Source: Bacteroidota bacterium (lineage in GTDB: Bacteria > Bacteroidota > Bacteroidia > Chitinophagales > Chitinophagaceae). From it: a DNA stretch of 63,120 nt. Within the stretch, counting starts at the first letter, position 1, and each line of letters opens with the position of its first letter. A program made the translations under genes and the position numbers. The notes beneath the pieces are model-generated. The model was given only the letters and a program-made list of their open reading frames with translations, was not told the DNA's origin and searched no databases. The stretch spans positions 1-63,120 of the forward strand of contig BJGL01000003.1 of the NCBI GenBank assembly GCA_014190475.1, in the 5' to 3' direction. This document shows, one piece after another, positions 2,397 to 47,297 of this stretch.

Positions 2397-4558
2397 TTAG
2401 CAAGTGTCAATTCGTTAATCAAGTGTGGGGCTCCTCCTAATTTATCAATACACCAGAGCACATAACGGATATCCACACAAATCGTACGATTCAAGTCTTT
2501 ATCGAAGGCCAGCTTATGACTGAGTGCTTCGTAATTTCCGTCAAACGCTAGTCCAATCAGTTCGCCCTTATTATTTAATACGGGTGAACCTGAATTACCC
2601 CCTGTGATATCATTGGTAGTTATAAAACCAATTACCAGGTCTTTGCGAGATGGGTCCATGTACTGACCAAAATCCTTTTTACGTAATAACTCGATTTGTT
2701 TGGTGGGTAGATCAAACTCATAATCGCCCGCTTTATACTTTTCGAGCAAACCACGTGAGGTAGTTACATAATCGTATTTAACTGCATCGCGAGGCTGATA
2801 ACTTTTTACGTTTCCATAGCTCACGCGCATGGTGAAAGTAGCATCAGGATACATCTTTTTAGCTTTTACTGTATCCATCTCAATTACGCCTTTCAGATAA
2901 ATTCTACCAAACTCAGCATTCTTAGCATTGAATTGCTGAGAAAATATTCCATACTTGGAATTATAGTTAGTGATAAAAGTGCTGGCATATGCAAACGCCG
3001 GATCAGTTTGTAAGGTTGCTGCATCCGGTTTTGCAACAAAAGCGGCCCAGCGCGCATCATCAAAAATGATAGTTTTAGTAAACACATCTGCTGCATAGCG
3101 ACGGTAGGTTTCATCATCTTCTAGACTACCATATTGATTTTTTAGGGTAGGGAAGAAGGTGGCAGGATGTTGTTGCTTATCAATTTCCTGGAAATACATT
3201 TTAGTTACAGCACCCAGGATCTTTTGATCCGATACTTTGTTTTCACTTTCTAGAAAAGCTTTTCTGCCTTGATCAGCTGCTTCAACTGCCTTCCTAACAT
3301 CTGCTGCTGCAGTGCCTGGGCGGGTAAGCGCTGCCTCTAGTTGTAATAAGGAGCTTGCAAAAGACACCAAGGGGGAACCTAAAATTCCTTCGCGCATAAA
3401 CATTTGATGTTTGGCATAAGGTCTCCAGGCATCATAAGCTTTGCCCCAGTCAGCAAATAAATTTTCATAAGCTGGTTTACCCTTGGCCCATTGGTTAAAT
3501 TTCTCTTCGTCTTTCTTTTTTTGTCCTACTACATCGTATTTCAATAATTGCTTGGTTTCTCCATCAAAGAATTTCCAGTAATTGGCAATACCTGCGTAGG
3601 AGGAAGCCAACTGTAATTTCACGGCTGGATCTTTTTTCATTTCTTCAAACATATACTTCAAGCGTACATCTCTTAAACTAACCAGGGTTGGATTGTTGAT
3701 ATCAGTAGCCAATCGTATTCCATAGCTACTTTCATATCGGTTAGTACTTCCCGGATAACCCCAGATCATGGCAAAGTCACCGTCTTTCAGTGGCTTTAAT
3801 GAAACGGGCAAGTACCATTTTGGTTTTAAGGGAATATTAGCCGCGTTATATTTTGCAGGTTTACCCGTTGCATCCGTGTATACACGAAATACGGAAAAGT
3901 CTCCTGTGTGACGAGGCCATTCCCAGTTGTCGGTGTCTCCACCAAATTTTCCAACGCTTTCCGGAGGTGTACCTACTAATCTGATATCGGAGTAACGCTG
4001 GTATACAAATGCCAGAAACTGATTGCCCTTGAAGAGTGAGCTTACTCTGGTTTCGATACTCTCTGCGGCATTACTCAATCTTTTATTGATCGCAGCTAAT
4101 ACGGCCGCTTGTTTTTGTAAACGCTCTGTTCCAGTGAGTCCTTGTAAGGAATCCAATACTTCTTTGGTTACATCGTCAATACGAAGCAGAAATTGTACAG
4201 AAAGTGAAGTTTGAATTTCCTCGGCTGTAGTTTTTGCATAAAACCCATCACGCAAATAGTTTTTCTCTACACTGCTGGCGCTGGCGATCGCATCGTAGCC
4301 GCAATGGTGGTTGGTAAAAATGAGTCCCTTAGAGCTTACAATTTCTCCCGTGCATCCTCCCCCAAAAATGATGATCGCATCTTTCAGCGAGGGTTTGTTG
4401 ATTTGATATAATTGTTCTTTGGTCAGTTTAAGACCTTTCTTGACCATATCGTCGTACACTTGCTTGCCGAGCAAGAGGGGTAGCCACATTCCTTCGTCAG
4501 CTACTGCACGACTTGCCATGCTGATCAGCAATACTGCAGCAAAAAATAGTTTTCTCAT
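2393..4558 (-). CDS. S46 family dipeptidyl-peptidase (DPP7-like)
   Basis: GGGCTGEIVSSKGLIFTNHHCGYDAI near the N-terminus and GGNSGSPVLNNKGELIGLAFDGNYE near the C-terminus; signal peptide. Confidence 0.93.
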   Translation of the reverse strand: MRKLFFAAVLLISMASRAVADEGMWLPLLLGKQVYDDMVKKGLKLTKEQLYQINKPSLKDAIIIFGGGCTGEIVSSKGLIFTNHHCGYDAIASASSVEKNYLRDGFYAKTTAEEIQTSLSVQFLLRIDDVTKEVLDSLQGLTGTERLQKQAAVLAAINKRLSNAAESIETRVSSLFKGNQFLAFVYQRYSDIRLVGTPPESVGKFGGDTDNWEWPRHTGDFSVFRVYTDATGKPAKYNAANIPLKPKWYLPVSLKPLKDGDFAMIWGYPGSTNRYESSYGIRLATDINNPTLVSLRDVRLKYMFEEMKKDPAVKLQLASSYAGIANYWKFFDGETKQLLKYDVVGQKKKDEEKFNQWAKGKPAYENLFADWGKAYDAWRPYAKHQMFMREGILGSPLVSFASSLLQLEAALTRPGTAAADVRKAVEAADQGRKAFLESENKVSDQKILGAVTKMYFQEIDKQQHPATFFPTLKNQYGSLEDDETYRRYAADVFTKTIIFDDARWAAFVAKPDAATLQTDPAFAYASTFITNYNSKYGIFSQQFNAKNAEFGRIYLKGVIEMDTVKAKKMYPDATFTMRVSYGNVKSYQPRDAVKYDYVTTSRGLLEKYKAGDYEFDLPTKQIELLRKKDFGQYMDPSRKDLVIGFITTNDITGGNSGSPVLNNKGELIGLAFDGNYEALSHKLAFDKDLNRTICVDIRYVLWCIDKLGGAPHLINELTLAK

Positions 4559-33637: not shown

Positions 33638-34849
33638 TTAAAAGAAACGAAGAATCCAGTAAATAAAAGCGGCCAGTAATGCGCTGACTGGGATAGTAAG
33701 TATCCAAGCCCAAATTAAATTAATGGTTACCCCCCAGCGAACGGCGGATAGACGTTTTGTGGCGCCCACTCCCATGATTGCTCCTGTAATAGTATGTGTG
33801 GTGCTAACTGGAATTTTTAATGCTTCTGTGAGAAAGAGGGTCAGGGCTCCAGCAGTTTCTGCCGCTACGCCTTCAAAGGGAGTTACTTTGGTGATACGCG
33901 TACCCATTGTTTTTACAATTTTCCAGCCACCACTCATGGTGCCTAATCCAATAGCAGCGTAGCAGGCAATAGGAACCCAGTTAGGCATTTCCTCAAAAGA
34001 ACCAATTTGCCCTCCAGCAATTAATGCTGCGGTGATAATACCCATTACTTTTTGTGCATCATTACCCCCATGTCCAATGCTAAAAGCTGCTGAAGAAACT
34101 AGCTGTAATTTTTTGAACCATAAATTGGAACGGTGTGCATTCAATTTATTTAGATACAAAGAAAAAATTGCCATAGTCAATAGGATGAAAGCCAAAAGGA
34201 TCCACTTGAAATTTTTAGAGTAGAAAATAACTTGCATCCAATAACTCTCATAATCTGTTTTCCCAGCAAGCTCAACTGGATCTGTGAGTAGGTTTGTTTG
34301 CAAAAAGTAAACTACGTATACTATTACCACCAATGAGATAATTCTGGATTTCCAACCTTTACCAAATGAGCTTAAAAACCAGAGAGACATGACAAATGCC
34401 ATCAGCATGCCAATTAAAGGTGCTAAAAATATAAAGCTGACAGTTTTGATAATAACAGCAGAATTGACTGCATCAAATCCCGCAGCTGCAATTCCTGCAC
34501 CGGCAAACCCGCCAATCAAGGTATGAGAGGAGGAGGAGGGAATTCCAAACCACCAAGTCAATAAATTCCACGCTATTGCTGCAATCAAGCCAGCAAAAAT
34601 CACGTTCATCATGCTCCCGCCATTCACGGCGTCCGCATTTACAGTTTTAGCAACAGTATTAGCAACTCCGTGGTCTTTGAAAATGAAAAAGGCTACGGAG
34701 TTAAATATAGCTGCCCAAAGTACCGCTTGAAAGGGGGTAAGCACTTTGGTAGATACTACAGTAGCAATAGAGTTAGCAGCATCATGAAAACCATTGATGT
34801 AGTCAAAAAGAAGAGCGAGAATTATGATTGAAATCAGAAAAGTAGTCAT
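33638..34849 (-). CDS. Inorganic phosphate transporter (Pit family)
   Basis: FDYINGFHDAANSIATVVSTKVLTP; GHGGNDAQKVMGIITAAL; PVSTTHTITGAIMGVGATKR. Confidence 0.95.
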   Translation of the reverse strand: MTTFLISIIILALLFDYINGFHDAANSIATVVSTKVLTPFQAVLWAAIFNSVAFFIFKDHGVANTVAKTVNADAVNGGSMMNVIFAGLIAAIAWNLLTWWFGIPSSSSHTLIGGFAGAGIAAAGFDAVNSAVIIKTVSFIFLAPLIGMLMAFVMSLWFLSSFGKGWKSRIISLVVIVYVVYFLQTNLLTDPVELAGKTDYESYWMQVIFYSKNFKWILLAFILLTMAIFSLYLNKLNAHRSNLWFKKLQLVSSAAFSIGHGGNDAQKVMGIITAALIAGGQIGSFEEMPNWVPIACYAAIGLGTMSGGWKIVKTMGTRITKVTPFEGVAAETAGALTLFLTEALKIPVSTTHTITGAIMGVGATKRLSAVRWGVTINLIWAWILTIPVSALLAAFIYWILRFF

Positions 34850-34856
34850 GAACTAA

Positions 34857-35531
34857 TTATGCATATTTGAGGATAATTGACTCGATTACGTTACTGGCAT
34901 CTTCGCACTTGTCAGTGGCCAGTTCCATAACTTGGTAAATTTCCCGAATCTTAATTACCTCTTTAGCGTCTGTTTCTAAGGCAAACAAACGCTCGATACT
35001 CATATCAAAAACATCGTCAGCCTGATTTTCAATGCTGTTAATCTTAATCATAGCCTCCGTGATAGCCTTGATATTTTTCATATCACGCAGCTGCGTAACT
35101 GCAATCTTTACCTGCTGGCATCCTTGCTCGATCAATTCAGCAAACTTTTGCATACCCGTATCGTTGGTATTGACCCGGTAGAAGTTCATTTTTTTTGCGG
35201 ATCCGAAAATATAGTCAGCAATATCATCCAGAGAGGTGGCTAGATAGTGAATATCTTCCCGATCAAAAGGGGTGATAAAATTTCGTCCCAACTCCAAAAA
35301 TAAACTGTGAGTCAAGTCATCATTTTGATGTTCCAAGTCCTCTATCACAGCAATTAACTTGGCTCTTTTGTCAAAATCAGGCTCAGCAACTACTGCCTTC
35401 AGTTGTGTGCCCATCACAGTCAAATTTTCTGCCACTTTTTCAAACAGTTCAAAAAACACCGCATTTTTAGGGATGAAAATTTTAAGAAAAGAATTTAATC
35501 CGGACATATATGATTTTTTAGCAAGGCGCAA
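34857..35531 (-). CDS. DUF47 family protein (phosphate transport accessory, PhoU-like)
   Basis: All-helical; EDIHYLATSLDDIADYIFGSAKKM; adjacent to Pit gene. Confidence 0.9.
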   Translation of the reverse strand: MRLAKKSYMSGLNSFLKIFIPKNAVFFELFEKVAENLTVMGTQLKAVVAEPDFDKRAKLIAVIEDLEHQNDDLTHSLFLELGRNFITPFDREDIHYLATSLDDIADYIFGSAKKMNFYRVNTNDTGMQKFAELIEQGCQQVKIAVTQLRDMKNIKAITEAMIKINSIENQADDVFDMSIERLFALETDAKEVIKIREIYQVMELATDKCEDASNVIESIILKYA

Positions 35532-35713
35532 TTAGTGCACAAGCGAAAATACCTTTGTATTTTCTCTTGAAGTATCTCTTATTAAGAATTAATGATTAGT
35601 TAATAAATCAAGATTAAATAATTCAATATCAGTGTATTATATACAATTTTAGCCTATTGATTTGCCCAGTTGGTGGCTTTTTTTAGCTGTGCTGCCAAGG
35701 GCTTGGTAATATT

Positions 35714-35765
35714 CTGTTAACATGGGGTTAACCATCTGTTAACAATGCCGTAAGGTTCGGATAAC
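35714..35765 (+). promoter_or_regulatory. Putative Pho-box-like array: five 8-mers phased at 11 bp
   Basis: CTGTTAAC-atg-GGGTTAAC-cat-CTGTTAAC-aat-GCCGTAAG-gtt-CGGATAAC, then 10 bp to -7-like CAGCTTTG (35776-35783). Confidence 0.7.
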
Positions 35766-35799
35766 ATGCGCATCACAGCTTTGCACGAAATATTAAAGC

Positions 35800-38589
35800 A
35801 TGTTTTTACGGATAGCTCAAACTCTTGGTTTTCTCTTGTTGGTCGTTAGCTTTTCCGCCAACGCTCAGTCAATTAAGTTAACGGGAAAAATTACAAATAA
35901 TAAGAATGAAGCATTGTCAGGGGTTACCGTAAAAATACAGGGTACTAATGCAGGGGCCATGTCTGATGTAGAGGGTCGTTTCAATCTTGCTTTAGCACCT
36001 GGAAAAAAATATACAATTGATTTTTCTGCAATCGGGTATGAGCCAAAAACTATTACAGAGGTTGAGGTTAAAGAAGGTCAGGTAAATGAATTGGACATCA
36101 CTTTGGATATAAAATCGAAGACGCAGGAAAATGTTACTGTAACAGCACGTACTTCCACAGCCAGACGCGAGACAGTGAATTCTATGCTGTCTTTTCAACG
36201 TAATACAAACACGGTGGCTTCAGTGGTTGCTGCCGAAGCTATTCGTCGCTCTCCAGATCGTAACACGGGTGAGGTACTTAAAAGAACACCTGGAGCCAGT
36301 TTACAAGAAGGAAAGTTTATTGTAATTAGGGGTTTGGCCGACAGATATAATCAAGCCATGATCAATGGTATTTTGCTGACCAGCACTGAGCCTGATCGCA
36401 AAACATTTTCATTTGATTTGATTCCTTCCAATGTAATTGACAATCTTGTAATCAATAAAGCCTTTGTGCCGGAATATCCCGGTGAGTGGGCTGGAGGTCT
36501 TATCCAAGTGAACACAAAGGATATACCCTCCAAAGATTTTTTACAGATACAGGTAGGAACGGGGTTCAACTCACAAGCATTAGGCCGAGATTTTTTTAAG
36601 GATCACAGAAGTCCGACAGATTGGTTGGGTTTTGATAATGGCACTCGTGCAATGCCATCCTCGTACACACGGAAATCCGCTTTTGACACACTTTCACCTG
36701 CTGAAAAGACTGCAATCGGTAAGCAACTTAGAAATGCATGGGATCCTATTCTTTCTCAAATCCTGCCTAATCATTCCTTTCAGATTAACGGCGGTTTCAG
36801 TGGTAAATTTCTTGGAAAAACTGTCGGAGCTACTCTCGGAGTAACTTATAACAGAAACTATCGCGTGTTAGAGTTGATCAATCGCTCTAATTCCCTCACT
36901 GGGGGTGTTTTTAGCGTCAACTACGATTTTAATGACACACGTTATGTGCAAGATGTGAATGCGGGTGCTATTGGAAGTTTCTCTATCCAATTAAATTCTT
37001 TGAATAGGATTTCAATCAAGTCAATACTAAGTGTTAGTGCCCCTTCTTTTGTTACAAAGCGGGTTGGGTTGGACTATAACAGAGATGAGGATCTTACTGC
37101 TAGCGAGTTACAGTTTAAGCAAAATACATTCTTCACCTCCCAAATAAATGGAGATCATTCTTTGCATTCCTCGTTGAAGTTGAAGTGGTATGGTTCATTC
37201 AATATTTTGGACGGGTATATTCCTGATCAACGGCGAATTGCATACACCCGTACCACAGGCACACAGGATCCATATCGACTGTTAATCTCTAACACATTAT
37301 CACAACAGAGTGGAAGCCGTATTTACCAAACACTCAGTGATTACATCTATACGGCAGGTGGTGATTTAAATTATAGCTTCAATGCATTTAGTCAGAAACA
37401 ATCCCTAAAGGTTGGATACATGTTCCAGGTCAAAGACCGTTTATATGATGCCCAGCTTTTTGCAAATTACCTTCCCAAGGATAATCCTGCATTAAAAGTA
37501 TTACCTGCCGCTACCGTTTTTGCACCTGAAAATTTTGGTAATGGCACAGATACAAAATTTGGTTTTGATGCCATCAAAGGAAGAAATTTCCGATACATGG
37601 CTAACACTATTTTGAATGCAGGTTTTATTCAATTTGACAATCAGTTTAGCAACAATTTTAGAATTGTATGGGGTGTTCGAGCTGAGCATTTTGACCAATT
37701 AGTTGGTAGTGTGAAAGTATGGGACCCTCGGCACTCTTATTCAAAGGTGCTTGATTTCTTACCTGGAGTAAACGCTACCTTGAAATTAAATACAAAAACA
37801 AATCTCCGTCTGTCAGGTTCTCAGACTGTAATAAGACCCGAGTTGCGTGAATTATCCTTCCTTAATATCTACGACTTTGAACTGAACGCCTCTGTACAAG
37901 GAAATCCTTTACTGAAGCGTACTAAAATCACCAACCTTGATTTACGCTATGAAATTTACCCTAAGCCGGGAGAGGTATTTACTGCGGGAGTGTTTTACAA
38001 GTTCTTTGACAATCCTATCGAACAACTTTTCAATGAGGGAATTGGAGGTGCAAGTACTTTTAGCTACCAGAACCCTGATAAAGCAACTGCTTATGGATTG
38101 GAAGTGGAGTTGAGAAAGAAGCTGGATTTCACTAATGCGCTAAAGAATTTTACCTTCCAATTCAATGCCTCATACATTAAGAGTAATGTGAAAGACCAGG
38201 GCTTTCAGATTGACAGACCCTTGCAAGGCCAATCTCCTTATTTGTTGAATGTTGGCCTTTTATATGACTACGAAAAGGCAGGAATCAGCAGTACACTCCT
38301 TTTCAATCAAATTGGCGAGCGTATCTATTTAGTGGGTGATCTCACAGCAGGTGCGGGATCTCCAAATATTTGGGAAGCTCCCCGTCCTCTATTAGATTAT
38401 CAAATTGCCAAAAAATTGATGAAGAATAAGTCAGAACTGCGTTTAAACATTTCTGACATATTGAATGCTACGCAATATTTCTATCAAAATGCGGATGCTA
38501 AGAGTTCTTTTCAAAAGAACTTGGATGCTTACCGATTTACCCGACGCCAGGGAACCACATTTAGTCTTTCATTTCAAATCAACTTATAA
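35800..38589 (+). CDS. TonB-dependent outer-membrane receptor with carboxypeptidase-like regulatory domain
   Basis: Signal peptide; ITNNKNEALSGVTVKIQGTNAGAMSDVEGRFNL; plug GEVLKRTPGASLQEGKFIVIRGLADRYNQAMINGILL; C-terminal FSLSFQINL. Confidence 0.93.
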   Translation: MFLRIAQTLGFLLLVVSFSANAQSIKLTGKITNNKNEALSGVTVKIQGTNAGAMSDVEGRFNLALAPGKKYTIDFSAIGYEPKTITEVEVKEGQVNELDITLDIKSKTQENVTVTARTSTARRETVNSMLSFQRNTNTVASVVAAEAIRRSPDRNTGEVLKRTPGASLQEGKFIVIRGLADRYNQAMINGILLTSTEPDRKTFSFDLIPSNVIDNLVINKAFVPEYPGEWAGGLIQVNTKDIPSKDFLQIQVGTGFNSQALGRDFFKDHRSPTDWLGFDNGTRAMPSSYTRKSAFDTLSPAEKTAIGKQLRNAWDPILSQILPNHSFQINGGFSGKFLGKTVGATLGVTYNRNYRVLELINRSNSLTGGVFSVNYDFNDTRYVQDVNAGAIGSFSIQLNSLNRISIKSILSVSAPSFVTKRVGLDYNRDEDLTASELQFKQNTFFTSQINGDHSLHSSLKLKWYGSFNILDGYIPDQRRIAYTRTTGTQDPYRLLISNTLSQQSGSRIYQTLSDYIYTAGGDLNYSFNAFSQKQSLKVGYMFQVKDRLYDAQLFANYLPKDNPALKVLPAATVFAPENFGNGTDTKFGFDAIKGRNFRYMANTILNAGFIQFDNQFSNNFRIVWGVRAEHFDQLVGSVKVWDPRHSYSKVLDFLPGVNATLKLNTKTNLRLSGSQTVIRPELRELSFLNIYDFELNASVQGNPLLKRTKITNLDLRYEIYPKPGEVFTAGVFYKFFDNPIEQLFNEGIGGASTFSYQNPDKATAYGLEVELRKKLDFTNALKNFTFQFNASYIKSNVKDQGFQIDRPLQGQSPYLLNVGLLYDYEKAGISSTLLFNQIGERIYLVGDLTAGAGSPNIWEAPRPLLDYQIAKKLMKNKSELRLNISDILNATQYFYQNADAKSSFQKNLDAYRFTRRQGTTFSLSFQINL

Positions 38590-38609
38590 AATCAACTAAA
38601 GCAAATATC

Positions 38610-40067
38610 ATGAAGAACTCAATTCTTTTTCTAGCTGGTTTATTAGCCCTTGGCATTACTAGCTGCCGAAAAATCGAAAAAGATGGTGAAATCCAGGTTG
38701 TTGTTGTGAATGGTGGTGGCGGGTCTACCACCGGTCAGACAATTACCTTGCAAGGTCGTATCGCTGCTGATACAATTTTGCGTAAGCAAAACACCTACAT
38801 CCTGAAAGGTTTAGTGTACATGGTGAATAATAAAACCATGACCATCGAACCAGGTACTGTAATTAAAGGTTCATTCAGCGGATCTGATGTAGCTGCATTA
38901 ATCATTACACGTGGATCTAAACTTATTGCAGAGGGTTCTGCCACTGACCCAATTGTATTCACCTCTGCTTCGCCAAATCCTCAATCAGGGGACTGGGGTG
39001 GAATTGTGATTTGTGGTAGAGCTCCAATAAATACCAGCTTTAATGGAACTGCGGGGTTATTCCAAGTTGAAGGAGGAATTGATAACGCAAATGGGGATGG
39101 CCTTGCCGGCTCTGGTGATGCTGTAGCTCCGGCTGCAATTCCAACCGATAATTCAGGGTCTTTAAAATTTGTACGTATTGAATACGCTGGTTATGCTTTC
39201 CAGCCTGATAAGGAAATTAATAGTTTAACGATGGCTGCGGTTGGTAGTGGAACCACTATTGAGAATGTACAAATTACATATGCCAAGGACGATGCATTTG
39301 AGTGGTTTGGCGGAACGGTAAATTGTAAATATTTGATTGCCTATAAGACGCAGGATGATGATTTTGATACGGACAATGGGTATAGTGGCAAGGTCCAGTT
39401 TGGTATTGTTTTCAGGGATTCATTGATTGCAGATATTTCCAGATCTGAAGCTTTTGAAAGTGATAACAATGCTGCTGGAACCACCGCAACTCCCCAAACA
39501 AAAGCCATATTTAGTAATATCACAGCCATTGGTCCTCGTGCAACATTGAATAATATTGGTAATGCTTTATATCGTGGTGCAGCTCACATACGCCGCAACT
39601 CGGGCATATCAATTTTCAATTCAATAATACTTGGATGGCCTACAGGTATTGAAGTAGATGCTACTACTGGTCGCTCAACTATGCTTAATATCGAGGACAG
39701 TACCCTTCGTTTACGTAATATCACTTTGGCTGGTAATACAAATGCTACTGCATATCCTGGGGTTGCGGGTAACACAATCACTACTCCTGCATTATTTGCT
39801 TCTTGGTTTTCACAAGCATTTTATAACAATGACATTCTTGTAAATACTTCAGATGCGCGATTAATTCAACCTTTCAATTATAATGCATTTGATCCTACTC
39901 CTTTTGCTGGTTCAAACGGAAATCAGCGAATATTGACCGGAGGCGGTTTTATTGATGCCAAGTTCACAAACGATACTTTCTTTGATAAGACAATTACTTT
40001 CAGAGGTGGTGTAGCACCAGCGGGTGCCCTCTCTACTTGGTGGAAAGGCTGGACTGTATTTAAGTAA
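38610..40067 (+). CDS. Lipoprotein with right-handed beta-helix-like repeats, partner of TonB receptor
   Basis: Lipobox LGITSC; TIEPGTVIKG, GSKLIAEGSATDPIVFTSASPNPQSGDWGGIVICG; 20 nt downstream of the receptor. Confidence 0.75.
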   Translation: MKNSILFLAGLLALGITSCRKIEKDGEIQVVVVNGGGGSTTGQTITLQGRIAADTILRKQNTYILKGLVYMVNNKTMTIEPGTVIKGSFSGSDVAALIITRGSKLIAEGSATDPIVFTSASPNPQSGDWGGIVICGRAPINTSFNGTAGLFQVEGGIDNANGDGLAGSGDAVAPAAIPTDNSGSLKFVRIEYAGYAFQPDKEINSLTMAAVGSGTTIENVQITYAKDDAFEWFGGTVNCKYLIAYKTQDDDFDTDNGYSGKVQFGIVFRDSLIADISRSEAFESDNNAAGTTATPQTKAIFSNITAIGPRATLNNIGNALYRGAAHIRRNSGISIFNSIILGWPTGIEVDATTGRSTMLNIEDSTLRLRNITLAGNTNATAYPGVAGNTITTPALFASWFSQAFYNNDILVNTSDARLIQPFNYNAFDPTPFAGSNGNQRILTGGGFIDAKFTNDTFFDKTITFRGGVAPAGALSTWWKGWTVFK

Positions 40068-40087
40068 CTTAGTTATAATGCTAACTT

Positions 40088-40120
40088 AATAAGGCCCAAT
40101 TTATTGGGCCTTATTTTTTT
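40088..40120 (+). terminator. Strong intrinsic terminator
   Basis: AATAAGGCCCAA-TTTA-TTGGGCCTTATT (12-bp perfect stem) followed by TTTTT. Confidence 0.95.
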
Positions 40121-40230
40121 GTTCCTCAATGTTAAATTTTTAGAATCTTGTAAAACTTAATATTGAATTTCGGAGGTTACTTGTTCAACTATCTATTTTT
40201 GGGTGTACTCAATTATTACACCCCCGCTTT

Positions 40231-40482
40231 ATGAACAGAATTATCGAAGCAATTCGAAGGGCACCCTCTGTGAAAGATGTTTCAAGTTTATTGGATAGTC
40301 ATTGGAACGAAAAAAGAGAATCCGGGACTGAAGCAGGGATAATTTTTTTAATTGAATTAAGAGCTGCATTAAATCAAATTGACCCGATTGATGTGGGGGA
40401 GTCTGCCGAGTGGGCTAATATTCAGCATGCCAGAGTTTATCTCCACCGTATTACTGCAAAGCAATCTTCTCAGGCAAAATAA
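40231..40482 (+). CDS. Hypothetical small protein (83 aa)
   Basis: Isolated ORF with soluble coding-like composition; TATTTTTG (-7-like) at 40194-40201; overlaps the 3' end of a convergent gene. Confidence 0.5.
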   Translation: MNRIIEAIRRAPSVKDVSSLLDSHWNEKRESGTEAGIIFLIELRAALNQIDPIDVGESAEWANIQHARVYLHRITAKQSSQAK

Positions 40483-41485
40483 AATCTCTTTTGTTGGGGA
40501 CTGACCAAATCTCTTGTATATAGCCTAATGATTGATCTGTGGAGCGGCTATAATCCCGTTGAATCATATCCCCATGTGTCAACCAAGTCTCAATAGAACT
40601 CGCATCAAGTGCTTTGTAGGGGTCTAGTACAGTTACCCCCATATTTTTTAAAGCAATGGCATTACAGTATTGCTCGTATTGTCCCCAAATTGGCATTGCT
40701 AGGATTTTCTTTCCTAGTTGCATCGCCTCTGCTGGTGTTTCAAATCCTGCTCCACATATTATCCCGTCCGAATTAATTAAGCTTTTATTGAACGATTCTT
40801 GTTCGATAGGTTTGAAAAGTATATTTTTTTCCTGAGTAGCTGCTTTAACAGTTTTACTAAATACCTCAAAGCGCTGAAGAGGTATTTTTTTTAGAATTGA
40901 TTGTAAGAAACTGTCATGTAAAGCAGGAAGATAAACGGTGATATGTCCCTGATTAATTGGAGTTGCTTTTAGTATTTCCGGTTTTATAATAGCACCAAAT
41001 ATTGCTGGGTGGTACTTTTCGAAGTGTAATCCAATATGGTGGGAAGCCTGAACATATTTTTTCAAAAGCAATTCGCCATGCCAACTTTTAAAGGCAGGTC
41101 TGGGTACTTCTGCATATTGAAAACTGGCTTGATGTCCAAAATGTATTGAGTTGACCTTTTTCAAGCTACAAGCCATTGAGGTTAAGCAATCAAAGTCGTT
41201 CAACACCAAATCATATTTTTCAACAGGTAAGGATAATACTTCTTTGTAGATACCAATAGGATTTCGCTGAAAGGCAATCTTTGTATAATCCAGTCCTCCG
41301 GCATTATTGTAGTAGAGACTGATTCCTTTACTTCTGAATTTAATGGGTAAATTGGCTTGCAGGTGGCTATTATTTCCGCTCAAAAAGCAATCGACTTCAC
41401 CCCATTTTTGTAAGTGGGGTAGGAGCGTAATTGCCCTACTAATATGTCCATTACCGGTAGCTTGTACTGCGTAAAATATTTTCAT
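40451..41485 (-). CDS. Glycosyltransferase (GT28/MurG-like fold)
   Basis: N-terminal YAVQATGNGHISRAITLLPHL; C-terminal GIICGAGFETPAEAMQLGKKILAMPIWGQYEQYCNA. Confidence 0.85.
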   Translation of the reverse strand: MKIFYAVQATGNGHISRAITLLPHLQKWGEVDCFLSGNNSHLQANLPIKFRSKGISLYYNNAGGLDYTKIAFQRNPIGIYKEVLSLPVEKYDLVLNDFDCLTSMACSLKKVNSIHFGHQASFQYAEVPRPAFKSWHGELLLKKYVQASHHIGLHFEKYHPAIFGAIIKPEILKATPINQGHITVYLPALHDSFLQSILKKIPLQRFEVFSKTVKAATQEKNILFKPIEQESFNKSLINSDGIICGAGFETPAEAMQLGKKILAMPIWGQYEQYCNAIALKNMGVTVLDPYKALDASSIETWLTHGDMIQRDYSRSTDQSLGYIQEIWSVPNKRDFILPEKIALQ

Positions 41486-41500
41486 ATGTTGTAGACTAAA

Positions 41501-42352
41501 TTAAAATGGAAGCTGGTGTATGTGCAGCCCGATCTCATCTGTTTCTACATTTAACTCAGGTAATTGCTTTTGCATACTTACCACAGGTGCCAGTTGAAAA
41601 TCCTCTTCTTTATAATGATAGATCTCCCAGGTTTGATTGGAGTATTCAAGGGCGGTTAAATTTTCTATCCAATCACCACTATTTAAATAAGTAACCTGCC
41701 CCTCGACAGTCGTTACTACTCGTTGCTGGGGCTGGTGTATGTGCCCACAAATCACATAATCATATCCCTTATTGATGGCTAGCTCAGCTGCTGTTTGCTC
41801 AAAATCCGCGATCCAGCTTACGGCTTTCTTTACTCCATTTTTTACTTTCTTGCTCAAGCTCATTTTTGGCTGACCAAATTGAGTCAGTATCCAATTGATT
41901 AGCCGGTTTAGCAGAATAAGCCAGTCATATCCCCAGCCTCCCAATTTTGCAATAATTTTTGCACTTCCTTTTGTAGTTGCATCGAAAACATCACCATGAA
42001 AAATCCAGGTGCGTTTACCATTCATTTCTATAACCAACTTATCTGTCAATTGAAAGTTACCCAGGTGAAGTTCACTATAGCGGCGTAGCATTTCATCGTG
42101 ATTGCCGGTCACATACACAACTCGGGTTCCTTGGGCAAGCAAGTTTAGAATCTCCTTAATGACCTGCATATGGGCTGGAGGGAAGTAGCTTTTACTAAAT
42201 TGCCAGCCATCTATGATGTCCCCATTCAAAATCAGCAATTGAGGAGTAATGCTTTTAAGATAATGTACCAACTCCCTTGCATGACAACCATAGGTTCCCA
42301 AGTGAATGTCACTAAGTACCACTACGTCGGGACTCCTTTTTTGCATTATCAA
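41501..42352 (-). CDS. Calcineurin-like metallophosphoesterase (UDP-2,3-diacylglucosamine diphosphatase/PlcP-like)
   Basis: VVLSDIHLGTYG, LNGDIIDGW, VTGNHDE, IFHGDVFD, VICGHIHQPQ. Confidence 0.88.
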   Translation of the reverse strand: MIMQKRSPDVVVLSDIHLGTYGCHARELVHYLKSITPQLLILNGDIIDGWQFSKSYFPPAHMQVIKEILNLLAQGTRVVYVTGNHDEMLRRYSELHLGNFQLTDKLVIEMNGKRTWIFHGDVFDATTKGSAKIIAKLGGWGYDWLILLNRLINWILTQFGQPKMSLSKKVKNGVKKAVSWIADFEQTAAELAINKGYDYVICGHIHQPQQRVVTTVEGQVTYLNSGDWIENLTALEYSNQTWEIYHYKEEDFQLAPVVSMQKQLPELNVETDEIGLHIHQLPF

Positions 42353-42376
42353 GAGTTTAACGAAGTAAAACCGCTA

Positions 42377-42419
42377 ACGTTAACTGGGTATTAAGCAGAT
42401 GTTATGAAACCGTGAATCA
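42377..42419 (-). promoter_or_regulatory. Putative Pho-box-like array between divergent metallophosphoesterase and ppx genes
   Basis: Minus strand: TGATTCAC-ggt-TTCATAAC-atc-TGCTTAAT-acc-CAGTTAAC (11-bp phased), 10 bp, then TTACTTCG (42368-42361). Confidence 0.5.
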
Positions 42420-42448
42420 TTTTTTTATTTTTTATTTATTTCAATCTG

Positions 42449-42456
42449 TAAATTTG
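42449..42456 (+). promoter_or_regulatory. -7 element TAAATTTG upstream of ppx
   Basis: TAnnTTTG ending 8 nt before GTG start. Confidence 0.5.
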
Positions 42457-42464
42457 AATCCGAA

Positions 42465-43364
42465 GTGAAACTGGCAGCAATAGACATAGGTAGTAATGCT
42501 GTTCGACTCTTGATTTCTGAAGTAGTTGAGCATGCCGAGCAAAATCCTGATTTTATAAAAACAGTATTAGTCCGTGTTCCTTTACGCTTGGGTTTTGATG
42601 TATTTGAAAGGGGCTCCATATCAGGAAACAAGACAGAGCAGTTAGTAAAGACCATGCAAGCATATAAGTTGCTTTTGGATGTATATGGGGTGCGAAATTT
42701 GAAAGCTTGTGCTACATCCGCCATGCGTGATGCAGCCAATACAACTGAAGTTTTGCAACGAATTAAAGCGGAGGCAGGTATTGCGGTACGGGTAATCAGT
42801 GGTGAAGAGGAAGCAACATTAATTTATGAAAATCATATTGCTGATTATTTGGACGCTGCCGAGTCTTATTTATATATTGATGTAGGTGGGGGTAGCACCG
42901 AGCTTACTTTTTTTAGTGATGGGAAACTGGTATTTAAAAAGTCTTTCAATATTGGAACTATACGATTGCTAAAGGAGCAGGTTTCTTCGGAAAACTGGGA
43001 GGATATGAAAACGTATATCCGTCAGAAAATTAAAGGACATCACCACGTTACGGCTATTGGCTCCGGTGGTAATATCAATAAAATATTTAATCTTTCTAAA
43101 AGAAAAGAGGGGAAGCCCATCGATTTGGAGCTGTTGAAGCAATATCATAAGGAATTGAATGAGCTAAGTATTCCTGAGCGTATGCAGCAGTTTCGCATGC
43201 GTGAGGATCGGGCGGATGTTATTGTGCCGGCGCTTCAAATCTATATAAACGTTATGCGTTGGGCTGACGCCGAAAGCATGTTTGTACCAAAGATTGGGCT
43301 TGCTGATGGCCTGATCCATACTCTCTACGAGGAGGTGGTATCCAGAAAGGCAGTAGCTAAATGA
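42465..43364 (+). CDS. ppx: Ppx/GppA family exopolyphosphatase (GTG start)
   Basis: KLAAIDIGSNAVRLLI; LYIDVGGGSTELTFFSDG; TAIGSGGNINKI. Confidence 0.93.
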   Translation: MKLAAIDIGSNAVRLLISEVVEHAEQNPDFIKTVLVRVPLRLGFDVFERGSISGNKTEQLVKTMQAYKLLLDVYGVRNLKACATSAMRDAANTTEVLQRIKAEAGIAVRVISGEEEATLIYENHIADYLDAAESYLYIDVGGGSTELTFFSDGKLVFKKSFNIGTIRLLKEQVSSENWEDMKTYIRQKIKGHHHVTAIGSGGNINKIFNLSKRKEGKPIDLELLKQYHKELNELSIPERMQQFRMREDRADVIVPALQIYINVMRWADAESMFVPKIGLADGLIHTLYEEVVSRKAVAK

Positions 43365-43463
43365 TAATCAGCCTGTTCCCTTAATGTGAAACAATTATTA
43401 ATTCAATTTTACCTCTCTTAGGTTCCTTTCCGATCAGTTAGTTTTGTTGTACACTCTGTTTGC

Positions 43464-45557
43464 ATGCTAATTCCACGTGACATCAGCTGGCTGTCATTTA
43501 ATGGCCGCGTCTTACAAGAAGCGAATGACCCTACCGTACCGCTTCAACAACGTATTCGATTTTTGGGCATATTTTCTAACAACCTGGATGAGTTTTTTAG
43601 GGTTCGTGTGGCTACTCTTAAAAGGATGTCCGATTTAAGAGCCAAGCGAAAGAAGCTCAACATTGATATTGACGTCAATGCGCAAGAAATTTTGGACGAG
43701 ATACAAATGATTGTCTTGCGCCAGCAAAATGAGTTTGAGCGTATTTGGAAAAATATCATACAAGAACTCAAACAGCATAAGGTTTATATTAAAAATGAAA
43801 AGCAGCTAACCAAGCCACAACAGCAATTTGTTCGTGAATTTTTTGAGTCACAGGTTCGTAATTACGTTATTCCCCTCATGATTGAGACTCTACCATCCTT
43901 GCCTTACATTCGAGATAAAAGCATTTACTTGGGTGTGGTCATGCGAAAGAAGAGCACGGCCTACCAAGATCAGTATGCATTGATTGAAGTACCTGTAAAA
44001 TCCATTGGTCGATTTGTTCAGCTACCTTCATCCGGGGATGAAAAAAATATTATTCTGTTGGAAGACATTATTCGATTTAACTTACCTAGGATCTTTCCCT
44101 ATTTCGATTTTGAACTTTTTGAAGCTTGGTTATTTAAGGTTACCAAAGATGCCGAGTTAGAAATTGACCACGACTTGTCTACCAGCTTTGTCGAGAAAAT
44201 GGCCAAGGGTATTAAGAACAGAAGAAAAGGGAAGCCGGTGCGATTTGTCTATGATAAGGAGATGGATAATGGGCTACTACAGTACCTGATTGGTCGGTTG
44301 GGCCTCACTAAAAAAAGTGCAATTATACCAGGTGGTCGTATCCATAACTTTCGACATTTTATGGATTTTCCGAACGTGCTACCCGCAACCCAAGCCCGAA
44401 AGCCCGCTTTTACCCATCCATTGTTAAAGGATACTCTTCGTGTTACAGATGTGATATTACAGCGTGATGTGATGCTGCATTTTCCTTACCATTCTTTTGA
44501 CTCGTTAATTGATTTATTGCGCGAAGCTGCTATGGATGCTGCAGTCGAACGTATACAAATCACTGCCTATCGGTTGGCCTCCTCTTCGCGTGTTATTCAC
44601 GCTTTGATAAATGCAGCAAGGAATGGGAAATCGGTGGAAGTTATGCTCGAATTAAAAGCAAGATTTGATGAGGAAGCAAATTTGGAATGGAAATCTGTTT
44701 TGGAAGAAGAGGGTATTCGAGTATTGTTAGGGGTGCCAAATATGAAAGTGCATGCTAAGCTTTGTGTTATTACACGTAGGGAAAATAAAAAGAGACAGCT
44801 TTACGGATTTGTTAGCACGGGTAATTTGAATGAATCCTCTGCCCGCGTTTATGCTGATCATTGTCTATTGACGTCTTCCCCAGTTATCATGCGGGATGCT
44901 TTACATCTATTTGAATATCTGGAAAAATGGCAGCGTGGTATGATGCCACTTCGGAGATGTAAAACCTTGTTAGTTTCACCAGTATCCATGCGTACTGATA
45001 TAGCCCGGATGATTGAGCAAGAAATAAAGACTGCTCGATCTGGGAAGAAAGCAAAAATTATTATAAAGCTTAATTCACTTAGCGACCCCTCATTGATTAA
45101 ACTGTTGAACAAAGCTGCTTCAAATGGAGTAGAGCTTCATTTAATTATCAGAGGGATTTATTGTGCTCGATTTCCGATCTCCAAAAAGGCGCTTCCCCCT
45201 CATGCCATCAGCATCGTTGACGAGTATTTGGAGCATGCTCGTGTGTTAGTCTTTTACAATAAAGGAAAGGAGCGCGTGTTTATTTCATCTGCCGATTGGA
45301 TGGTACGAAATCTCGACTATCGGATTGAGGCTGCCGTTGAGATTTTTGATCCAACTATTCGTAAAGAAATGCTTAGCATGCTGGACATTCAGCTTGCAGA
45401 TAATGTTAAAGCAAGACTGTTGAATGATCGGTTAGATAATCAGTATGCCAAAAATGATTCCAAGCATTCGATCCGCTCACAGGTATTGATTGCGGACTTT
45501 CTTCAACGGGTCTCGTTGAGAACTCGCAAAAAGCTGACTAGGAAATCGGTAGTGTAA
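43464..45557 (+). CDS. ppk1: Polyphosphate kinase 1
   Basis: FLGIFSNNLDEFFRVRVATLKR; LHFPYHSFDSLIDLLREAAMD; MKVHAKLCVITRR; TGNLNESSARVYAD. Confidence 0.96.
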   Translation: MLIPRDISWLSFNGRVLQEANDPTVPLQQRIRFLGIFSNNLDEFFRVRVATLKRMSDLRAKRKKLNIDIDVNAQEILDEIQMIVLRQQNEFERIWKNIIQELKQHKVYIKNEKQLTKPQQQFVREFFESQVRNYVIPLMIETLPSLPYIRDKSIYLGVVMRKKSTAYQDQYALIEVPVKSIGRFVQLPSSGDEKNIILLEDIIRFNLPRIFPYFDFELFEAWLFKVTKDAELEIDHDLSTSFVEKMAKGIKNRRKGKPVRFVYDKEMDNGLLQYLIGRLGLTKKSAIIPGGRIHNFRHFMDFPNVLPATQARKPAFTHPLLKDTLRVTDVILQRDVMLHFPYHSFDSLIDLLREAAMDAAVERIQITAYRLASSSRVIHALINAARNGKSVEVMLELKARFDEEANLEWKSVLEEEGIRVLLGVPNMKVHAKLCVITRRENKKRQLYGFVSTGNLNESSARVYADHCLLTSSPVIMRDALHLFEYLEKWQRGMMPLRRCKTLLVSPVSMRTDIARMIEQEIKTARSGKKAKIIIKLNSLSDPSLIKLLNKAASNGVELHLIIRGIYCARFPISKKALPPHAISIVDEYLEHARVLVFYNKGKERVFISSADWMVRNLDYRIEAAVEIFDPTIRKEMLSMLDIQLADNVKARLLNDRLDNQYAKNDSKHSIRSQVLIADFLQRVSLRTRKKLTRKSVV

Positions 45558-46584
45558 AGCCAATTGTAGTTCCAACTTGCTCTGTGCTTCTGGCATGAAT
45601 AGTTTCTCCATGCGCTTCAATGATATGTTTACAAATGGCCAGCCCCAGGCCACTTCCTGTAATATCTCGTGATCTACCGGTTTCAGTGCGATAAAATCGT
45701 TCAAATATTCTAGAGATATCTTTTTCGGCAATCCCAATCCCATCATCGGTTATTTCAATCAAAATATGCTTGCCATCAGTTTTGTACATCGATGCTGTGA
45801 TGCTACCATTTTGTTTGCCGTATTTGCGTGCGTTTTCAATCAGGTTGCTTAGTACCTGTCTGATTTTTTCTTTATCTGCGTATACGGATAAAGGGTTTTC
45901 GCATTCCTTTTTTATACTGCAATGAATGGTATTATTCTCTGCAGCTGATTCAGTCATTTCAAAAACTTCTTTCACTAAGTCTTGAATTATAAAGGATTGT
46001 TTGATCAAGGGCAATTCACCTCTTTCTAACTTAGCGATCTGCTCAAGATCGGAGAGTAGATTGGAAAGCCTTTCTATATTACGTCTGGCATTTTCCAAGT
46101 ACTTCTTATTTACTTTAGGATCATCCAGCGCGCCATCTAATAGTGTTTCTATATATCCTTGAATGGAGAAAATAGGTGTTTTGAATTCATGGGATAGGTT
46201 TTGAAGAAATTCTTTTCTAAATTGTTCATTCTGGCGAAGCAATTCCATCTCTTTTTCGTTCTCGATGGCCCAGTCCTCTACATCTTTACTGACCTCCTCT
46301 AGCGTTTTCGGAGGGAGAATATACTTGTAGTAGTTCTCCTCCCTTTTGGTGGTTTTAGTCTTATGAATGAATTTGTAGATCAGTTTTATTTTTCGGTTGA
46401 TAAATTGTTCCAGCAATGCATTGATTACAAAATAGCTGATAGTAAAAATTGCTGTAAAAGAAAGTAAACCCAATGCCCATTTTCCGGAGGCCCATATAAC
46501 AAGTAAACTTTCTGGAAAAGATAGTATCAGGGCTGCAGTCAACGCAATTTGCCTGGGTGTAATATTGCTTTCTTGATTCAGCAT
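45538..46584 (-). CDS. Sensor histidine kinase (PhoR-like)
   Basis: NLSHEFKTPIFSIQGYIETLL; SNLIENARKYG; GSGLGLAICKHIIEAHGETI; two TMs. Confidence 0.92.
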   Translation of the reverse strand: MLNQESNITPRQIALTAALILSFPESLLVIWASGKWALGLLSFTAIFTISYFVINALLEQFINRKIKLIYKFIHKTKTTKREENYYKYILPPKTLEEVSKDVEDWAIENEKEMELLRQNEQFRKEFLQNLSHEFKTPIFSIQGYIETLLDGALDDPKVNKKYLENARRNIERLSNLLSDLEQIAKLERGELPLIKQSFIIQDLVKEVFEMTESAAENNTIHCSIKKECENPLSVYADKEKIRQVLSNLIENARKYGKQNGSITASMYKTDGKHILIEITDDGIGIAEKDISRIFERFYRTETGRSRDITGSGLGLAICKHIIEAHGETIHARSTEQVGTTIGFTLPIS

Positions 46585-46619
46585 GAATTATGCTGTAAAG
46601 GTAAGTTCCGTTAATACAG

Positions 46620-47297
46620 TTACAGGACAAATTTATAGCCTACTCCCTTTACAGTTTTTATACAGTCAATACCGAGTTTTTGTCTGATTTTTCGGATGTG
46701 AACATCAATGGTGCGATCACCCACAATTACTTCATTGCCCCAAACCTGGGTTAAAATTTCATTTCTTAGGAATACGCGTCCGGGTTTATTGGCGAGTAAG
46801 TAAAGGAGCTCGAATTCTTTCTTGGCTAAGGAAATGGATTTTCCCTCTACAGTAACTAAAAATTGCTCGGCGTTTATAGCTATGGGCCCGGCAACTAAAC
46901 TATTGCTTTCGGATTTACTCTGTCTTCTAAATAAAGCTTGTAAACGACTCACCAGCACTTTGGGGCTAACAGGTTTTCCAATATAATCATCAGCTCCTGT
47001 TTCCAAGCCTTTCACGACGGAACCGTCGTCACTGAGTGCGGTTAACATAACAATGAGCGTTTCACTGAACTGGGTCTGCGAACGTAATATTTTGCAGACT
47101 TCCACACCCGATTTTTTAGGCATCATTACATCCAAGAGAATAAGATCTGGTTTATTTTTTTTGGCTTTATCCAACGCATCGTCTCCATCCTGCGCCAAAA
47201 TCACTTCATAACCCGCTGCACTGAGATTGTATTGCAACAACTCCCGAATATCCGGTTCGTCATCTGCAACCAATACTTTACGGATCTTACTTTCCAT
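46620..47297 (-). CDS. OmpR/PhoB-family response regulator
   Basis: VADDEPDIRELLQYNLSAAGYEV; LDVMMPKKSGVEVC; winged-helix C-terminus IDVHIRKIRQKLGIDCIKTVKGVGYKFVL. Confidence 0.94.
   Translation of the reverse strand: MESKIRKVLVADDEPDIRELLQYNLSAAGYEVILAQDGDDALDKAKKNKPDLILLDVMMPKKSGVEVCKILRSQTQFSETLIVMLTALSDDGSVVKGLETGADDYIGKPVSPKVLVSRLQALFRRQSKSESNSLVAGPIAINAEQFLVTVEGKSISLAKKEFELLYLLANKPGRVFLRNEILTQVWGNEVIVGDRTIDVHIRKIRQKLGIDCIKTVKGVGYKFVL

Follow-up and report, generated by a model that had tools for sequence, protein, structure and literature searches.

The phosphate island and the repeats before its TonB receptor

The stretch of DNA analyzed here (the window, 63,120 nucleotides from a Bacteroidota bacterium) contains a phosphate island at 33638–47297 encoding PiT, DUF47, a TonB-dependent receptor (TBDT), a lipoprotein, a PlcP-like phosphoesterase with a glycosyltransferase (GT), Ppx, Ppk1, PhoR, and PhoB. 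A PiT-type phosphate permease (33638–34849, minus strand; PF01384) lies next to a DUF47/PhoU-like PiT accessory protein (34857–35531, minus strand; PF01865), which is the divergent neighbor of the TonB-dependent receptor (35800–38589, plus strand; CarboxypepD_reg, Plug, and beta-barrel). The receptor gene is followed by that of a lipoprotein (38610–40067, plus strand) without a Pfam match, the counterpart of F. johnsoniae FII and probably a right-handed beta-helix. The best PDB matches of its fold model were pectate lyase and other beta-helices, and a PDB sequence search of the lipoprotein returned nothing credible; because the model is of low confidence (mean pLDDT 52), the beta-helix is indicated only. 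A small ORF of about 80 amino acids (40232–40483, plus strand) lies between the lipoprotein gene and the 3′ end of the glycosyltransferase gene, where relatives carry the RNA candidate described below. Further downstream are genes for an exopolyphosphatase (Ppx/GppA; 42465–43364, plus strand), a putative polyphosphate kinase 1 (43464–45557, plus strand), the start of which resembles a Ppk-like ORF in relatives, a PhoR/PnpS-like histidine kinase (45538–46584, minus strand), and a PhoB-like response regulator (46620–47297, minus strand). The gene content of the island is kept in relatives, several of which add a Porin_O_P-type gene next to the TBDT gene.

The region upstream of the receptor gene contains six direct repeats with a spacing of exactly 11 bp, a candidate Pho-box array (35705–35770, plus strand), with the units GGTAATATTCT, GTTAACATGGG, GTTAACCATCT, GTTAACAATGC, CGTAAGGTTCG, and GATAACATGCG starting at 35705, 35716, 35727, 35738, 35749, and 35760, as placed by a unit matrix from relatives. 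An earlier sequence-only reading had described five units of GTTAAC at a constant 11-bp period; its coordinates, period, and match counts (6, 6, 6, 3, and 5 of 6 positions) proved exact on rechecking, and the five units are real, but a sixth unit, GGTAATATTCT at 35705, had been overlooked. GTTAAC itself did not hold as the repeat unit, as relatives conserve [CG][GT]TAACATNNN instead, with T3 and A5 invariant across 21 arrays of six units from same-genus promoters; the palindrome GTTAAC in three of the units is a local accident and incidental. The array is followed by a 9-bp spacer, CATCACAGC (35771–35779, plus strand), and by TTTG at 35780–35783, with the receptor ATG at 35800. TTTG belongs to a −7-like element, CAGCTTTG (35776–35783, plus strand), which in relatives reads CANNTTTGC; all 19 sequences compared share its C, A, and TTTG. 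The sequence-only reading gave the gap to CAGCTTTG correctly as 10 bp; measured from the end of the 11-bp unit to TTTG, the distance is 9 bp.

The unit matrix was trained on 19 relatives with the copy in the window excluded, and it gave the six-unit array 57.1 bits, compared with a maximum of −4 among 3000 dinucleotide shuffles of the intergenic region and a top score of 15.5 among 30 simulated 126-kb sequences. In the same region, periods of 8 to 15 other than 11 all scored −29 or less. Three GTTAAC at 11-bp phase occurred once in the 1.9-Mb genome, in the array upstream of the receptor. A sequence-only profile, R1, built from 19 relatives with both the window copy and its 81%-identical relative excluded, recovered the window array with 46.4 bits (E = 7.2e-12).

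Conservation, spacing, and unit number in relatives

Of 59 relatives, 48 have an ortholog of the TonB receptor, with identities as low as about 30%. Among 21 same-genus promoters, the information content averaged 1.21 bits per array column versus 0.16 just upstream, and an R1 match (E < 1e-5) preceded the orthologous receptor in 35 of 42 same-genus genomes. A second set of 80 named loci was drawn mostly from Chitinophagaceae, including Terrimonas, Niabella, Segetibacter, Sediminibacterium, Chitinophaga, Flavihumibacter, Lacibacter, and others; a few of its records come from genomes that were also among the training relatives. The array was found at 65 of the 78 testable loci of this set, versus 2/78 on the reverse strand and 0/78 in coding controls. 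The sequence-only reading had stated that a lack of phased units upstream of orthologous receptors would speak against it; they are kept there in most genomes of the genus and at most of the named loci.

In the named set, 62 of 65 arrays have their last unit 9 bp (mod 11) from TT[TC]G, so that a fixed distance to a core promoter element, as in a Pho box, is present. The number of units was also restricted: 27 loci had four, 29 had six, one had five, and four had three, these loci being related and not independent events. Counted as paired half-sites, 56 of 62 named arrays (again from related loci) had four or six units and one had five; the four- and six-unit forms coexist, and the five-unit form is almost absent. 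This near-constant use of four or six units is the prediction for a regulator dimer on two half-sites, with two or three PhoB dimers per array.

The Chryseobacterium receptor orthologs lacked the array when scored with the relatives' matrix, as seen in eleven Chryseobacterium and Kaistella loci (L307–L312, L317, L320, L323, L326, and L327). Several of these loci carry a degenerate GTTAATACAAA/CTTCACAATTA/ATTAAGATTCT pattern with 11-bp phase whose end lies near TTTTG and which may represent a lineage-specific form of the unit.

Genes preceded by the array

Scanning of the whole 63-kb window revealed only two places exceeding the four-unit null, the receptor promoter and the promoter of the PlcP-like gene. 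The latter contains a second candidate Pho-box array of four units, ATTCACGGTTT, CATAACATCTG, CTTAATACCCA, and GTTAACGTTAG (42374–42417, minus strand), followed after 9 bp by TTCG (42361–42364). A four-unit score of at least 9 was obtained in 15 of 16 same-genus orthologs, and PlcP promoters outside the genus were mostly without the array. The gene behind it encodes a calcineurin-like, PlcP/LpxH-like phosphoesterase (41501–42352, minus strand; PF00149), for which an LpxH-like function is possible, with the LpxH models scoring below their cut-offs. Directly 3′ of it and on the same strand lies the gene for a glycosyltransferase (Glyco_trans_1_3; 40451–41485, minus strand), by position an Agt-like glycolipid synthase. 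This order of phosphoesterase then glycosyltransferase is that of the PlcP/glycosyltransferase pairs, whose operons serve the exchange of phospholipids for glycolipids under phosphorus limitation (PMC4796936). Two weaker candidates in the window were set aside: an R1 match at 43361–43413 (minus strand, E = 0.019) between Ppx and Ppk1, which faces away from the sense of both genes and was treated as chance, and phased patterns upstream of phoB (47297) and DUF47 (35531), which were too degenerate to claim.

Across the phosphate-island loci, 53 period-11 arrays were found in 786 kb (both strands), compared with 11 in reversed sequence and at most four at a period of 9, 10, 12, or 13. All but one of the 53 lay between genes, most of them ahead of a TBDT, porin, or PlcP gene or an RNA candidate. 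The arrays of relatives also preceded Porin_O_P-type phosphate-selective porins, other TonB receptors, choice-of-anchor I proteins, beta-helix proteins, and a PF01663-type phosphodiesterase, and in other Bacteroidota families profile matches were found before TonB receptors. Two genomes from other families had arrays before both PstS and a porin or porin-like gene (Porin_O_P), with PstS assigned by TIGR02136 at 250 and 257 bits (cut-off 207). The sequence-only reading had proposed a genome-wide scan for enrichment upstream of phosphate genes, and the matches do stand before pstS, Porin_O_P, TBDT/FII, the PlcP/GT pair, and the PF01663-type phosphodiesterase, the position expected of a Pho box upstream of phosphate-starvation genes. 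PstS is a classical Pho-regulon gene. In F. johnsoniae, Pi depletion strongly induces the homologous cluster, which contains phoBR, TBDT, lipoprotein FII, PitA, and Ppk (PMC8115612). Together, the arrays before pstS and this Pi-induced cluster of like composition point to phosphate-starvation control. An array-like TTAACCTAAAATTAATATTAACTTCATA was also observed at L085:4619, L086:6003, L087:5801, and L088:5728, about 120–145 bp before an ORF of 159–161 amino acids that in L085 is cytidine/deoxycytidylate deaminase-like.

Relatives with larger genomes contain an extra four-unit array just 3′ of the lipoprotein gene that faces no ORF. Its layout is the array, 9 bp, TTTG or TTTA, CAGTTC, about 100 nt, and an intrinsic terminator, the stem of which shows covariation at 7 of 9 pairs. 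The resulting, previously unannotated RNA candidate of ~105–135 nt adjoins the receptor/lipoprotein operon, has a conserved CAGTTC 5′ end and no conserved ORF, and was located at L176 (~3300–3484, minus strand), L179, L180, L090:14909–15075 (plus strand), L091, L092, and L096:9690–9882 (plus strand), with matches of an RNA model, R2, at L340–L354. Of the 42 genus genomes, 18 matched R2 at E ≤ 0.05, 15 of them at E ≤ 1e-4; R2 found no copy in the genome of the window, and three loci with the RNA candidate had no match in Rfam. On balance, we favor a regulon-wide promoter code in Bacteroidota, in which four or six [CG][GT]TAACATNNN units end 9 bp before the TTTG of CAnnTTTG and which would also drive a PhoB-controlled small RNA of ~105–135 nt.

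Candidate regulator and comparison with known Pho boxes

The likely binder of the arrays is the PhoB-like regulator encoded at 46620–47297, in the same island, as the sequence-only reading had placed it. It is the top PhoB-family match of the genome and has both receiver and winged-helix domains; its best model was PhoB TIGR02154 (231 bits, cut-off 296), with 212 bits for NF053854 (cut-off 270). Two further OmpR-family regulators of the genome scored lower on the PhoB models and are located elsewhere. PhoB orthologs of at least 67% identity were present in nearly all same-genus genomes, and the co-occurrence of array and PhoB across the genus is too uniform for a strong test. Three relatives were discordant in one direction, with a PhoB orthologue (78–79%) but no R1 match in G003 and G011, and an R1 match of only E = 0.28 in G013; the incomplete assemblies G005 and G004 had the array and no close PhoB. 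Because of the scores below the PhoB cut-offs and these three plus two genomes, the link between the array and the 46620–47297 protein is the most economical reading only.

Taken together, conservation, geometry, and phosphate-gene association strongly support the earlier interpretation as a Pho box. The array is very probably a Bacteroidota Pho box, at which phosphorylated PhoB (46620–47297) would bind to activate the receptor/lipoprotein and PlcP-like/glycosyltransferase operons. Under phosphate starvation, the PhoR-like kinase would phosphorylate the PhoB-like regulator, and three PhoB dimers would then occupy the six 11-bp half-sites in head-to-tail order, all from one face of the helix. 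With the downstream edge of the array at a fixed 9 bp from TTTG, the bound PhoB may keep RNA polymerase on a weak promoter that has CAnnTTTG instead of TAnnTTTG, and the TonB receptor/beta-helix lipoprotein operon would thereby be switched on. The same regulator at the four-unit array of the PlcP-like/glycosyltransferase operon could couple uptake of organic phosphorus to phospholipid replacement, a predicted lipid remodeling.

It is unlikely that another regulator of the OmpR/PhoB family, ArcA-like or of the envelope-stress type, binds the array and that the phosphate genes are part of its wider regulon. The genome does encode two other OmpR-family regulators, the unit resembles the ArcA-type repeat to which the Riemerella PhoP motif was likened, and only a few of the 583 sites bound by this PhoP belong to phosphate genes (PMC9603813). 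However, arrays are found upstream of pstS, porin, TBDT/FII, and PlcP genes as well as within the phoBR island, and the remaining two regulators are, as noted, poorer PhoB matches encoded elsewhere. We consider it quite improbable that PhoB binds and represses the receptor operon, or also acts on the divergent DUF47/PiT genes, although the array lies within a 268-bp region common to divergent phosphate genes and PiT permeases can be subject to repression when Pi is scarce. The array-to-TTTG geometry is fixed towards the receptor and is kept in relatives with another gene upstream, and expression of the homologous receptor rises, rather than falls, when Pi is depleted. That the repeats arose by chance or are a structural feature of bent, AT-rich DNA to which no protein binds, for which the AT-richness of the intergenic region and nothing else speaks, is refuted by conservation and has a negligible probability, as none of the 3000 shuffles came within 60 bits of the array and phase and geometry are fixed across genera.

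The reading as a PhoB-bound Pho box can be set beside several known systems. The island resembles F. johnsoniae PUSIII/PUSIV in combining TBDT with FI/FII lipoprotein, phoBR, PitA, and Ppk in one cluster, but the account of PUSIII/PUSIV describes no DNA signal and does not use the term Pho box (PMC8115612). In B. fragilis, PhoB, a Bacteroidota PhoB as here, binds the pstC promoter directly in EMSA on a 512-bp fragment, but the accessible text gives no binding motif for the pst promoter (PMC3547664). Our literature search for a definition of a Bacteroidota Pho box found none except the Riemerella motif. DAP-seq of Riemerella anatipestifer PhoP, a PhoP/PhoB-class regulator of the same phylum, yielded TTTAACA, likened to ArcA, with the core TTAACA identical to the unit here, and a TonB receptor promoter was bound in EMSA; the accessible portion of the report is without a four- or six-unit array, fixed −7 spacing, or phosphate-gene regulon (PMC9603813). 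The sequence-only reading had known of no described Bacteroidota Pho box of this sequence, which stands for the architecture, as we found no account of it in the literature searched, but not wholly for the unit, because the Riemerella motif was already known. No description of the tandem array with its even unit number, of the 9-bp rule, of the regulon, or of the RNA came up in that literature; these four are new here.

Bacteroidota are major phosphorus mobilizers in soil, plants, and water. With fixed phase, spacing, and even unit number, their Pi-regulated genes become readable from genomes, including receptors and lipoproteins with unassigned substrates, a probable switch of membrane lipids, and a candidate regulatory RNA, and the fixed array-to-promoter distance makes recruitment of the unusual Bacteroidota sigma factor by a response regulator testable. 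The E. coli PhoB Pho box consists of CTGTCAT direct repeats at 11 bp that replace the −35 element, mostly in two to four units. The unit here, [CG][GT]TAACAT, has only TnnCAT in common with it (GTAACAT here versus CTGTCAT in E. coli); therefore, the array is not an E. coli-type Pho box, and since the sequence of Pho-box units differs between phyla, we regard it as a lineage variant. Like the E. coli Pho box, it is built from same-orientation 11-bp direct repeats with paired half-sites at a fixed short distance from a core promoter element; unlike it, the array has four or six units, its partner is a −7 element of the Bacteroidota TAnnTTTG type, and its regulon is led by TonB receptors and lipoproteins.
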